53,469 nucleotides of DNA from Rhizobium sp. Q54. Lineage in GTDB: Bacteria > Pseudomonadota > Alphaproteobacteria > Rhizobiales > Beijerinckiaceae. Both the position numbers and the translations under genes were made by a program. How positions within the stretch are numbered: the stretch's first letter is position 1; each line of letters opens with the position of its first letter. The stretch is from positions 1 to 53,469 of the forward strand of contig CAMCUC010000016.1 of NCBI GenBank assembly GCA_945878875.1, read 5' to 3'. The notes under the pieces are model-generated. The model had not been told where the DNA came from, ran no database searches, and saw nothing but the letters and a program-made list of their open reading frames with translations. This document shows positions 19,650-47,093 of this stretch, in pieces.

Positions 19650-19975
19650 GGCGTGATCCGGGAATAGGATGGCGGTCGCGGTTGCGATTTCATGACGTAA
19701 TCAGGTTCTCCGGCGCGGGCAAGCTCTTGAGCGCGAGATCGGGACTGTCCGGCGCAAGTTCCTCATTACCGGCTGTTCGGAGCGGACGAATGTGCCAATT
19801 TCCCTTCCCGGATGCGGCGCCGGCGCCTCATCCCGCAGTTTTTTCGCTCAAAGGCAAAAAATCGCTTGATCTGCGGCGGCGTATGCATATGTTTCGCCTT
19901 GCCCAAATCGCACGTGCCTGTGGTCGTGTGTCGGTTGGCGGGGATCCGGACAAGAGGCCGGTTAACCGTCATTAA

Positions 19976-20381
19976 AAGCCGGCAGCCGGAGCGAACCGGC
20001 GAACCCCGCCAAACGGGGGACGCGACTTAAAGCAACGACGGACCGGGCTTTTTCGTCTCGGTCGACCCCTCCAAAGGTCGGCGTACCGAAGAGGCTTGTC
20101 TCTCTTGCCGGGCGTGCGGACAGGGTTTTCCCTTTCCAATCGATGGCCACTGACACTCTGATCGCGTGCGCGCTTGCGCTCGTTTTCGGGGTCGTACGTG
20201 TCCTACGGCGCTGCACCGGATCGCATTGTTCGTCGCCGACAGTTCGGCGAAGACGGCGCGGTCCAGGACGGACGTACTTTGCACGACGCCGCCTCCACAG
20301 CGGCGCCGCAGCGTTGACGTTCGCCCATCCCATGTTTGGACGTTTTGTACGGCGTAAGGCCGTGCCTTGGGGGATGCCGCG
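19976..20381 (+). promoter_or_regulatory. Long structured leader of ornithine decarboxylase (candidate speF-motif RNA)
   Basis: About 700 bases without a convincing gene precede the decarboxylase. The last 400 are rich in possible stem-loops, for example CGACC/GGTCG at 20063-20080, CGCCGA/TCGGCG near 20235-20250 and CGCCGC/GCGGCG (20287-20292 with 20300-20305). In alphaproteobacteria a conserved structured RNA, the speF motif, lies upstream of this same gene. Assignment here rests on position and foldedness, not on an alignment. The upstream part 19650-19975 shows nothing recognisable. Confidence 0.45.
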
Positions 20382-35188: not shown

Positions 35189-35249
35189 AGTCTTGCGTAA
35201 CGACATTGATTACCATTCACCCTATGTTAAGGATTATATGCATTAAATA

Positions 35250-35352
35250 AGCCGTCCCGGATTTCGGGGCACTTGAGTGGCTCCTGTCCACTTTGTCTGA
35301 CGCTAACCTGTTGCCAACTTCAAAGAGCCGCTCCCCCCGCGGCTCTTTTTTT
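35250..35352 (+). ncRNA. Candidate small RNA with C-rich loops upstream of rcdA
   Basis: Three consecutive stem-loops end in a strong intrinsic terminator that belongs to no visible gene: GTCCCG/CGGGGC (35254-35270), GAGTGG/CCACTT (35275-35293) with loop CUCCUGU, and the terminator with loop UCCCCCC. CUCCU is a perfect anti-Shine-Dalgarno core, and exposed C-rich loops plus a U7 tail are typical of Hfq-dependent alphaproteobacterial sRNAs. An AT-rich stretch (35222-35250) could hold the promoter but no clean -35/-10 pair is seen. It could also be the leader of rcdA that is terminated early. Confidence 0.5.
35322..35352 (+). terminator. Intrinsic terminator upstream of rcdA
   Basis: AAAGAGCCGC (35322-35331) pairs with GCGGCTCTTT (35339-35348) around UCCCCCC, followed by further T to 35352. 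It lies 274 bases after DUF1192 and 135 bases before rcdA, so it probably ends a separate short transcript. Confidence 0.85.
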
Positions 35353-44410: not shown

Positions 44411-45004
44411 CTAGCGCCAGGCGAGCGAACAATCGATCAGCTCGCCCTCGGTCAGGATCAAATCGAGCGGCTGGTCGTGTTCTTCTTCGGGGACGCGGGC
44501 GATCTCTTGCGCGGCAAACGCAATGCCGATGGCAGGCGCGGACCGGCTGGCGCGGATTTGGGCGAGTGTGGCGTCATAATAGCCCCCGCCATAGCCGATG
44601 CGATAGCCGCGCCGGTCAAAAGCGGTCATCGGCGTGAAGATAAGGTCGGGCTGAACGCTGCGCGCGCCGGGCGCGGGCTCGGGAATGCGCATCGCGCCCT
44701 CGACCAGCGCCTGCCCCTGCTTCCAGGCGCGAAACGTGAGCGGCTCGCCCATGGCGCCCGCGCAGGGCAAAGCGACGATGATCTCGTGGTAGGTGAGCGC
44801 CTGCGCCATCAGCAGCGTGTCGGGCTCGGTGCCCACGGGCCAGAAAATGGCGACGGAGCGCGCAAACGCCCGCCGCGCCAAAGCCACGCCCTCAATCGCC
44901 AGCCTTTCAGCGAAAGCCTCGCGCGTGGCCGCGTCGACCTGCGCCCGAAGCGTAAGTGCGCTGCGGCGCAAGCTGTGTTTGGAAAGCGGATCTGACTCAC
45001 CCAT
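44411..45004 (-). CDS. 5-formyltetrahydrofolate cyclo-ligase
   Basis: 197-aa ATP-dependent enzyme converting 5-formyl-THF to 5,10-methenyl-THF (YgfA/FAU1 family). Near the N-terminus the substrate/ATP-binding Lys-Leu-Arg region appears as SKHSLRRSALTLRAQ. The C-terminal family motif is RRGYRIGYGGGYYDATLAQI, and IGIAFAAQEIARVPEEEHDQ follows. In proteobacteria this gene typically lies downstream of zapA and the 6S RNA gene, as it does here apart from the inserted cassette. Confidence 0.93.
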   Translation of the reverse strand: MGESDPLSKHSLRRSALTLRAQVDAATREAFAERLAIEGVALARRAFARSVAIFWPVGTEPDTLLMAQALTYHEIIVALPCAGAMGEPLTFRAWKQGQALVEGAMRIPEPAPGARSVQPDLIFTPMTAFDRRGYRIGYGGGYYDATLAQIRASRSAPAIGIAFAAQEIARVPEEEHDQPLDLILTEGELIDCSLAWR

Positions 45005-45051: not shown

Positions 45052-45210
45052 AAGTGCGGAGCCACATGAGCCGTGGGACATCGATCCCGGGTGCCTACAA
45101 AGTAGGTGGGCGCCGTGTGCTCAGGTCCACGGACAAGAACAGGGACAGCTCCCTAAAGATCGATAAGGCCCCGGAAATTGTGATCCACACGTGAACCGCA
45201 GCCCCGCCCA
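45052..45210 (-). ncRNA. ssrS: 6S RNA
   Basis: 6S RNA mimics an open promoter and binds sigma-70 RNA polymerase in stationary phase. The call rests on position (between zapA and 5-FCL, its standard place) and on sequence and fold. The ends close as GCGGGGCT with GGCTCCGC (including wobble pairs). The interior is rich in possible stems such as GGGAGCTGTCCC, CCGTG/CACACGG and the CCTAC/GTAGG hairpin. The 3' segment CACCCGGGATCGATG is the kind conserved in alphaproteobacteria. A -10 element TACATT (45219 to 45214, minus) lies just upstream. Ends are approximate. Confidence 0.7.
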
Positions 45211-45259
45211 TGCAATGTAGGGCGGATCGGGGGGGATTGCTAGCGGGATTAGCGACGTC

Positions 45260-45399
45260 GGACCGCGCCCGTCCCCTGGGCATTTTTGATGTGCCAGAAG
45301 GTGCGCGCGGGGTCGCGCGCGGTCCATGCGCCCCTAAACCTTCCGGCTCCCGGAATTCATCTGCTGCGAGAGCGCCTCAATCCGCACCGAGGCTGTATC
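45260..45399 (-). repeat. Left flanking copy of zapA 3' end plus spacer
   Basis: This 140-bp stretch is a diverged direct copy of 46950-47093. Both begin (plus strand) GGACCGCnCCCGTCCCCTGGGC, differ in the middle, then share CCTAAACC, TTCATCTGCTGCGA and GAGGCTGTATC. Identity ends abruptly at 45399/45400, the left edge of the inserted cassette. Confidence 0.8.
45334..45399 (-). pseudogene. zapA 3'-end remnant (last 21 codons)
   Basis: On the minus strand the frame reads DTASVRIEALSQQMNSGSRKV then TAG. The intact zapA ends DTASVRIEALSQQMNAGGRRV. Most base differences between the copies are at third positions, so this piece was once under selection as a zapA end and is not random similarity. 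It has no start and is cut off at the cassette boundary. Confidence 0.8.
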
Positions 45400-45401
45400 G
45401 A

Positions 45402-45740
45402 TCAACCAGACACAGGTGAATATACCGTATTCAACACCGGCAGCTTACCTTCATGCTGGATATGGATATTCATCCAAGTTCGTTCGACTTTCTCCATTTC
45501 AAGGCTTTCGAACCAGTAAAAATATGTCGCTCGGCCCAGCGCTGTTGGTGCGGTCTTCTCGTCGCTACTCAAATGGTTTTTCATTCTGGTTCGCAGATTC
45601 TTCGCCAACCCAACGTAAAGCAACTCCTTTGCAAATGTGGCCAGTGCATAGCAGCCAGATTTTTCTGGTATGAACCTCTCGCGGCTGCGTTTGAAAATTT
45701 CATATTCAACAGGTTGCGGCGTCAACATATCGATCTTCAT
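45402..45740 (-). CDS. GIY-YIG domain nuclease-like protein
   Basis: 112-aa protein. The GIY-YIG fold is visible at residues 28-57: SGCYALATFAKELLYVGLAKN with GCY and YVG in place of GIY and YIG, followed by the conserved Arg in NLRTRMKNHL. A Glu (MEKVERTW) and an Asn late in the domain fit the catalytic set. Single-domain members nick or cut DNA in repair, homing or restriction. The ATG at 45740 overlaps the stop of the DGQHR gene (ATGA), so the two proteins are made together in coupled fashion. The stop lies three bases from the cassette edge. AT-rich, foreign-looking codon use. Confidence 0.8.
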   Translation of the reverse strand: MKIDMLTPQPVEYEIFKRSRERFIPEKSGCYALATFAKELLYVGLAKNLRTRMKNHLSSDEKTAPTALGRATYFYWFESLEMEKVERTWMNIHIQHEGKLPVLNTVYSPVSG

Positions 45741-46864
45741 AACTCGATATCCACCCGCATGGACGCCTTGTGCAGTGCTTTGGAAAGCTCCTGGGAGACG
45801 ACGTTGATTGCACCCGCATTCAAAAAGCTTGCGTTGCTGCCCTTTGCCCACCATTCAGGATGACCGACGCCTGCATATTCGCCCTCTACGTTCTCAAAAC
45901 AACTGGTGAGCAGCTTCTCCATAGTAGTGACTTTGAAATCGCCTCGGTCCTGAAGTTTCGTAAAGAACGGGATTGAAAATTTACAGAATAGCTCGACGCC
46001 ATTATATTTATATAATACGGCTGAATTACCGTTATCCAGCAATGCAGTAACAGCTTTCCAATAGTTAAGAAAAATTCTCTTTTCTCTATCAAAATCTTTC
46101 ACAATCGTCAGTGGATTGTTGGCCGTCAGGATGTATTTAACAACCGCCTTTACGAACGACTTCTGATTGATCGTGGTTTTATCCGAGTCGTCATTCGCCA
46201 TGAGGATTTTGCCCTTCCACGGTGAATCGGGTGCCTCATTCAGATAAACTACAAATTTAAGAGCTTTATCTACCTCGCCTCTTTCGACCGTGTTCAGGAT
46301 CCACTTCGGCAAGCTCGGTATGTCTTCGACATCAAGCGCATCAGTCAGCCTTGCAATAATCCTCTGTGCGACAGACTGATCGACGCTTTTTTGCGTCGTA
46401 TTGACGATCAGGAAATGACACATTTGTGCTATGTGAGGGAGATTAATCGCTACATTTACGGGGACCTCAAAGTCAAGAACTCTGGGATCTTTTTGAGCCG
46501 CCATCTTCAAACCTTCGAGGCGATGTTGTCCATCTACAACACTGAATGGCCCAACAAGCTTTGTGTCGATCTCAATCGTATGATCGCGTGTGTTGAAGGG
46601 AATTGTCTTATCTGTCGCCAACAATACAGATGTGGGAAGGAACGCGTCGCTTCTGTCTTGGCCCTTCAAGATATAATCGGCCAGTTTCTTTGCGCGCGCA
46701 GTGTTTAGTAACCTTTGATACCCCTTAGCGTCTTTGTTGTCGGGATCTAGCGTCTCGACATTATAAAAATTATCCACTGCAAGATCGCGAACCCGCATTG
46801 AAGTAGCATACAGGACCAGATCACCCTGCTTCACGCGGGCGGCAGGTATCACTATCTTCGCCAT
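45737..46864 (-). CDS. DGQHR domain-containing protein (DndB/DpdB-like)
   Basis: 375-aa protein with the name-giving motif at residues 111-115 (FSVVDGQHRLEGLK) and the companion region LIVNTTQKSVDQSVAQRI. DGQHR proteins include DndB, repressor/accessory of DNA phosphorothioation, and DpdB of the 7-deazaguanine DNA-modification system; most others sit in defence islands with unknown function. None of the Dnd or Dpd partner genes is nearby. It is first in a two-gene operon with the GIY-YIG protein. AAAGGAG lies 24 bases before the ATG, unusually far. An AT-rich stretch with TTGAAC and TATATA upstream (46897-46930) may be the promoter. Confidence 0.85.
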   Translation of the reverse strand: MAKIVIPAARVKQGDLVLYATSMRVRDLAVDNFYNVETLDPDNKDAKGYQRLLNTARAKKLADYILKGQDRSDAFLPTSVLLATDKTIPFNTRDHTIEIDTKLVGPFSVVDGQHRLEGLKMAAQKDPRVLDFEVPVNVAINLPHIAQMCHFLIVNTTQKSVDQSVAQRIIARLTDALDVEDIPSLPKWILNTVERGEVDKALKFVVYLNEAPDSPWKGKILMANDDSDKTTINQKSFVKAVVKYILTANNPLTIVKDFDREKRIFLNYWKAVTALLDNGNSAVLYKYNGVELFCKFSIPFFTKLQDRGDFKVTTMEKLLTSCFENVEGEYAGVGHPEWWAKGSNASFLNAGAINVVSQELSKALHKASMRVDIEL

Positions 46865-46949
46865 GTCTTGACAGCCTTTGTTCTGAGTCTCCTTTCTTCA
46901 GCTTAGCTATATATTTTCAAAAGTTCAAAGCTAATTGACCGAGCCCTCT

Positions 46950-47093
46950 GGACCGCACCCGTCCCCTGGGCGCAGCTTCTCATGGCCCCAAAACAGCGTG
47001 CGGGGACGCGCGCACTCCACACCCCGCCTAAACCCTCCGCCCACCCGCGTTCATCTGCTGCGACAGCGCTTCAATGCGCACGGAGGCTGTATC
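46950..47093 (-). repeat. Right flanking copy of zapA 3' end plus spacer
   Basis: Direct-repeat partner of 45260-45399, here continuous with the intact zapA. The spacer part contains GTGCGCGCG/CGTGCGGGG-type GC-rich strings. Over the alignable parts about a quarter of the bases differ from the left copy (estimate by eye). Confidence 0.8.

Follow-up and report, generated by a model that had tools for sequence, protein, structure and literature searches.

A DGQHR gene coupled to a small GIY-YIG nuclease gene between zapA and 6S RNA in Rhizobium sp. Q54: a candidate mobile two-gene module against invading DNA

Proteins with a DGQHR motif are known mainly from the phosphorothioate and 7-deazaguanine systems of DNA modification. 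One of them, DndB, belongs to the ParB superfamily and its role is disputed: it has been proposed to be a regulator, a nucleoside triphosphatase (NTPase) or a nuclease (PMC10853773). In SspE the pocket with the related motif D96GQQR100 hydrolyses GTP upon binding of the DNA mark; the protein then opens and its nuclease is turned on (PMC9646914). The same kind of domain is coupled to an HNH nuclease in BrxU and GmrSD (PMC10952713), and three motifs have been described for GmrS and the DGQHR domains: a QR pair, DGQHR and FxxxN (PMC4619093). What we quote from these four papers comes from the available parts of their text. Here we discuss contig CAMCUC010000016.1 of Rhizobium sp. Q54, positions 1 to 53,469, which we will call the window. 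It contains a DGQHR gene which overlaps the gene of a single nuclease, of the GIY-YIG type, and no modification genes recur beside this pair in the loci we have found. In such a two-gene unit the role of a DGQHR protein can therefore be tested in isolation. We have found no description of a DGQHR and GIY-YIG pair in the literature searched, which was available in part and scarcely covers subscription journals and preprints.

On balance we take the two genes for a module that moves horizontally and is probably directed against invading DNA, in which a DGQHR NTPase would license the GIY-YIG nuclease. An initial annotation, made from the sequence alone, had pointed out an AT-rich pair with the DGQHR motif at residues 111-115, a nuclease of 112 aa and an ATGA overlap, and both open reading frames (ORFs) could be verified:

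45737..46864, minus strand: DGQHR protein gene, 375 aa, with a predicted ParB/sulfiredoxin-fold N-terminal part and a helical C-terminal half
45402..45740, minus strand: GIY-YIG nuclease gene, 112 aa, with GCY29-31, YVG42-44, R52, H56, E86 and N104
45737..45740, minus strand: ATGA overlap of the two genes

That these genes form a unit is seen from their occurrence elsewhere. A single pattern-based pass over 84,980 species genomes, seeded with the DGQHR protein, gave 53 loci. The GIY-YIG gene is found behind the DGQHR gene in 53 of the 55 informative loci, window included. The coupling, which the initial annotation had proposed to look for in other genomes, also recurs. Outside the window, the start of the nuclease lies inside the stop codon (NTGA), as a 4-nt overlap, in 43 of 52 loci from many phyla; counting the window, this makes 44 of 53. 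An artefact or a chance pairing is rejected by this co-occurrence and by the gene overlap. The table of pairs has 58 rows: L119 repeats L021 and is not counted, while L066 (interrupted by what looks by eye like an insertion sequence), L069 and L075 (both at contig ends) are not informative. In L067 and L068 the DGQHR frames are broken and the nuclease gene is kept, 303 nt behind the broken frame in L067; in L034 the nuclease gene runs off the contig. Two DGQHR genes have no nuclease, L036 (10001-11131) and L052 (7837-9006). Three distant or fragmentary loci below the score limit (L071, L072 and L073) are excluded from the table and none has the partner; twelve distant DGQHR genes from the bacterial family of the window have no GIY-YIG neighbour in a flank of about 1 kb.

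The two partners have also been inherited together. Their protein distances correlate with r = 0.855 over 50 pairs, the maximum in 2,000 permutations being 0.35. Neither clade gene occurs alone in 398 genomes of the phylum, where the sole match is the genome of the window itself; an order-level sample has matches in 2 of 397 genomes, again including it. Orphan nucleases were sought in these 398 genomes and in one viral scan, the main scan being seeded with the DGQHR protein. Rare and patchy in its distribution, the pair is inherited as a unit. No third gene recurs by neighbour clustering, the largest clusters across loci spanning 4 loci, and no conserved leader or operator is seen by eye across 58 leaders. 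A conserved operon of two genes, found in unlike replicons and unlike taxa, agrees with the compact stand-alone module that had been proposed.

According to the titles given by the submitters, the loci in our tree come from Pseudomonadota, Bacteroidota, Chloroflexota, Acidobacteriota, Myxococcota, Thermodesulfobacteriota, Verrucomicrobiota, Spirochaetota, Planctomycetota, Elusimicrobiota, Bdellovibrionota and the archaeon Methanoperedens. Restriction to a single lineage, which would have spoken against the module, is thus contradicted by twelve phylum-level groups. Many of the genomes are metagenome bins. The pair is also present on five plasmids and on one virus contig, and this virus contig has the closest relative of the window copy (92% protein identity, tree support 100/99), followed by Blastochloris (L021, 100/98). 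In 48 of 49 loci the guanine plus cytosine (GC) content of the cassette is below that of its flanks, with a mean difference of 12.3 points.

In the virus contig the pair (L138, 4301-6000) is a clean insert, antisense between the tape-measure gene and the DUF2460 tail gene. The gap between these two genes is 60 nt or less in 39 of the 42 relatives in which both could be placed, mostly a one-base overlap or a few nt; the seven closest of these 39 have the one-base overlap, L140 (58 nt) aside. L178 was excluded from this comparison, and L179 and L182 have no tape-measure match. The gap is 1,699 nt in L138, 497 nt in L143 and 465 nt in L168. The last two have other antisense ORFs there, of 135 aa (just before 3416) and 131 aa (just before 6001). 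Since these three phages carry different content at the same place, the junction is a cargo site. A RAMA domain (PF18755) was found in none of three records of the other cargo genes. Between the phage and window copies of the two genes the nonsynonymous divergence (dN) is 0.046 and 0.152, with a synonymous divergence (dS) of 2.1 and 1.5, which is near saturation, and purifying selection on the pair is strong.

The smaller protein is a GIY-YIG nuclease. It scores 29.7 bits with the Pfam GIY-YIG model (cut-off 22.6) and belongs to the superfamily. At the positions of R52, E86 and N104, all 52 of 52 nucleases have the same residues (R, E and N); together with two tyrosines we take them to be the catalytic residues of this fold (Tyr, Tyr, Arg, Glu, Asn). 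The fold is near that of UvrC-type domains, with R.Eco29kI and Hpy188I among the matches listed. It shares fold and catalytic residues with UvrC, R.Eco29kI and I-TevI, but it is nearly a bare catalytic domain, little else fitting in 112 aa, and it lies beside a DGQHR gene in the loci found. A GIY-YIG domain is also present in the defence genes PD-T4-3 and PD-lambda-1; no DGQHR partner is mentioned for them in the available part of their description, on which this distinction is based (PMC10952713).

The DGQHR protein belongs to the DGQHR domain family, as DndB, DpdB and DGQHR_dnd_1 do, with 113.6 bits for TIGR03187 (cut-off 58.85) and 55 bits for Pfam DndB (cut-off 29.1). It is far below each equivalog cut-off and none of the three names applies: it has 22.1 bits against 328 for DndB (TIGR03233), 49.7 against 300 for DpdB (NF041060) and 66 against 450 for DGQHR_dnd_1. 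The pentapeptide at 111-115 is kept in 52 of 53 proteins, and Q50-R51, D111-H114, F151 and N155 are invariant. The predicted structure resembles solved ParB/sulfiredoxin proteins, which include SspE and BrxU; SbnI and a free serine kinase are also found among its matches. The predicted fold of the protein is thus that of the ParB/sulfiredoxin class, to which the sensor half of GmrSD, BrxU and SspE also belongs. This assignment relies on structure prediction, because the DGQHR profile, run against the sequences of solved structures, found chance matches only. Four rhizobial plasmid copies (L015-L018) have an N-terminal extension of about 140 aa which is DUF5655-like (Pfam 20.7 and 28.4 bits in two copies, cut-off 24); as it is present in these four copies only, it was rejected as a general part of the protein. 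A distant DGQHR protein (27.8% identity) is found in the filamentous, Pf-type Pseudomonas phage PfAC19 (L020, 9344-11323), directly followed by a protein of 324 aa; the two are possibly another DGQHR pair.

Among the nearest known systems are GmrSD and BrxU, of type IV restriction, which also join an NTPase domain of ParB/sulfiredoxin fold with a DGQ[Q/H]R motif to a nuclease, in two genes or in one. Q50-R51, 111-115 and F151/N155, matched by eye, are the invariant or nearly invariant counterparts of the GmrS motifs, as far as the available description of the latter goes. However, the pair has a GIY-YIG domain instead of HNH and DGQHR instead of DGQQR. GmrSD was rejected both by DUF262 (Pfam GmrSD_N has 14.7 bits, cut-off 33.2) and by its HNH (DUF1524) partner, the partner being GIY-YIG here. 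SspE differs as a single chain with HNH which requires phosphorothioate genes, whereas in our pair the chains are separate, the nuclease is GIY-YIG and modification genes do not recur. The pair probably works like GmrSD, although it is not DndB, DpdB or GmrSD.

The initial annotation had reported no Dnd or Dpd modification genes, and this agrees with the genome as a whole: neither DndC nor DpdA was found in it (G000, 92.8% complete). Membership of a Dnd or Dpd system is rejected by the equivalog scores together with these missing genes. Among 48 genomes with the DGQHR gene, many of them incomplete bins, DndC is above its cut-off in 4 and has any match at E 0.001 in 8; it is above the cut-off in 3 of 46 genomes with the pair. 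With DndC above the cut-off in so few carriers, it is unlikely that Dnd generally supplies a self-mark. Against a clean separation from Dnd, the distance between DndC and the pair in L033 (G917) is about 22 kb, provided that both are on the same contig. Both genomes with a nuclease-less DGQHR gene have a DndC-like match, L036 with 148.5 bits, below the cut-off, and L052 with 328.7 bits, above it: these orphans may have become associated with Dnd or may do something else.

In the mechanism that we propose, the DGQHR protein would be an NTPase of ParB/sulfiredoxin fold which monitors DNA. Its pocket, which would contain the DGQHR motif, would go through a nucleotide cycle and so license the small GIY-YIG protein to cut. 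The latter has a complete catalytic site but is too small to hold a separate DNA-binding domain, so that it would contact its partner and rely on it to reach its DNA target. The pair would then be a split, GIY-YIG version of the logic of GmrSD, BrxU and SspE, in which a DUF262 NTPase domain goes with an HNH nuclease. Modified DNA as the trigger would be a reasonable guess in view of this kinship, but no modification gene recurs. If the DGQHR protein is a sensor that gates the nuclease, this would speak for one logic of NTPase licensing shared by DndB, SspE, GmrSD and the present pair, the nucleases being interchangeable. An effect on phages or plasmids would be expected from the module. More tentatively, we suggest that the pair could be a minimal immune system, hitherto undescribed, that is shared by bacteria, archaea and phages: a mobile cassette of hardly more than the two overlapping genes, whose DGQHR NTPase would read some feature in invading DNA and activate the bare GIY-YIG protein, and which as cargo of a phage tail operon would exclude competitors.

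The way in which the cassette reached its present place has to be considered together with the other features of the locus:

45400..46948, minus strand: unique inserted DNA, 1,549 bp, with no counterpart in the empty site of G168 (blastn of the window against L107; GC)
46865..46948, minus strand: leader of 84 bp from the repeat to the DGQHR start, putative promoter and ribosome site
45256..45399, minus strand: distal repeat copy, 144 bp, with the zapA 3' end and the region behind it
46949..47093, minus strand: zapA-side repeat copy, 145 bp, with the zapA stop codon
47028..47399, minus strand: zapA, intact, with the insertion at its 3' end (Pfam ZapA 90.4 bits)
45055..45207, minus strand: 6S RNA, ssrS (Rfam RF00013, 62.2 bits, cut-off 46.4)
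44411..45004, minus strand: neighbouring ORF, which we take to be 5-formyltetrahydrofolate cyclo-ligase-like

The Rfam and Pfam matches bear out the placement of the cassette between 6S RNA and zapA, and the span first given for it (45400..46949) agrees with the unique DNA to one base. The cassette has 46.3% GC in surroundings of 65.0%. The foreign codon use that had been noted is also apparent: GC at third codon positions (GC3) is 0.516 in the DGQHR gene, the lowest among 35 ORFs of at least 200 aa in the window (median 0.742), and 0.527 in the shorter GIY-YIG gene. In a near relative (G168, with a ZapA 97% identical) the window is matched on both sides, with one repeat copy and no cassette. 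The insert is bracketed by two copies of the 3' end of zapA with its downstream region, which the initial annotation had overlooked; they have diverged, with 110 of 141 aligned bases identical (78%). The copy on the 6S side continues into native sequence, 98% identical to G168 as far as the end of 6S. Behind the zapA stop codon, 61 of 78 bases of the zapA-side copy and 64 of 75 bases of the distal one agree with G168; in the coding part of the repeat the values are 61 of 66 and 58 of 66. From these small numbers we infer that the insertion may have occurred at the 3' end of zapA, the cassette bringing along new sequence behind the stop while the former 3' end stayed as a remnant.

These repeats are relevant for the first alternative, a selfish homing-like cassette: a GIY-YIG nuclease aimed by the DGQHR protein would cut target genes, repair would copy the cassette in, and a remnant of the 3' end of the target would be left. 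It was in homing enzymes that the GIY-YIG domain was originally recognized, according to the available part of PMC1564403. The inserts at zapA and between the phage tail genes would fit such a process. A diverged 3'-end copy of the upstream gene is found behind the cassette not only in the window but also in Sphingomonas sp. BK345 (L025), where an intact tyrosine integrase and the cassette are followed by the final 59 codons of an integrase in a diverged copy (69% identical). Behind the zapA stop codon, the zapA-side copy is less similar to G168 than the distal one, as expected for imported DNA; in the coding part of the repeat the order is reversed. However, flanking repeats are not a general mark of insertion: only 4 of 49 loci are above the null maximum of 29 (scores 179, 118, 49 and 33), and one of them barely exceeds it. 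Few loci share neighbour genes, so that no cognate site is visible, although the 3' ends of zapA and of an integrase are duplicated behind two cassettes. To our knowledge, no homing enzyme has an NTPase partner. We consider homing unlikely, although it survives better than the other alternatives.

In L025 (8536-15046) there is also a type IIG restriction-methylase gene beyond the remnant of the integrase end, and the pair of this species probably sits in an island. In the genus of the window, one relative has a HigB-like gene within the zapA-6S gap (L116, 2961-3707) and another has TacAT-like genes just behind 6S (L113, 5334-6169), both recognized by eye. Because of these toxin-antitoxin-like genes, the zapA-6S region may be a small insertion spot.

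A second alternative, which we find slightly less likely than homing, is that the pair is a toxin-antitoxin system, the GIY-YIG protein being a toxic nuclease restrained by the larger DGQHR protein encoded upstream. Such a system would likewise consist of two short, coupled genes and occur at many dissimilar sites, an orphan antitoxin could explain the DGQHR genes of L036 and L052, and the HigB-like gene lies in the very same gap. On the other hand, an antitoxin of 375 aa with an NTPase fold would be unusual, and the 58 leaders show by eye no shared operator.

A pair of restriction-modification type, in which the DGQHR protein would mark host DNA and the GIY-YIG protein would cut unmarked DNA, is improbable. 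Restriction enzymes of the GIY-YIG type do exist, as the matches with R.Eco29kI and Hpy188I remind us, and ParB/sulfiredoxin folds include kinases such as SbnI and the free serine kinase. But we know of no DGQHR protein that modifies DNA, and the neighbours of the pair include no recurrent gene for a methylase or for sulfur transfer. The roles proposed for DndB in the available part of the source are regulatory, NTPase and nuclease (PMC10853773). Finally, a housekeeping accessory pair for DNA repair or recombination, which the nearness to UvrC-type domains might suggest, is very improbable for genes that are rare and patchy, have a GC content below their flanks and travel on phage and plasmids.

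The module against invading DNA that we favour may also be judged by its neighbours. They include type I, IIG and II restriction genes, AbiE, MADS, Ppl-like and GajB-like genes. At 1e-20 we have found 83 and 21 PADLOC families among 89 and 93 neighbour proteins and none among 75 control ORFs; these families overlap and the matches per protein are lower bounds, while the control was taken from arbitrary places in 17 genomes of the window's own order only and is not matched by phylum. The scan covered 182 of 191 neighbours, leaving out 9 near-duplicates or end fragments; L019 is not listed and one protein of L024 was dropped. Many neighbours are plain housekeeping genes. The expectation that the pair would be found in such islands is thus only partly true: defence genes are commoner beside it than in the control, but many of its neighbours are ordinary. 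The neighbour content supports a link with defence, though it is no proof. Elsewhere in the window, Rfam detects two small RNAs described as alphaproteobacterial, ar45 (19901-20052) and BjrC1505 (35210-35352).
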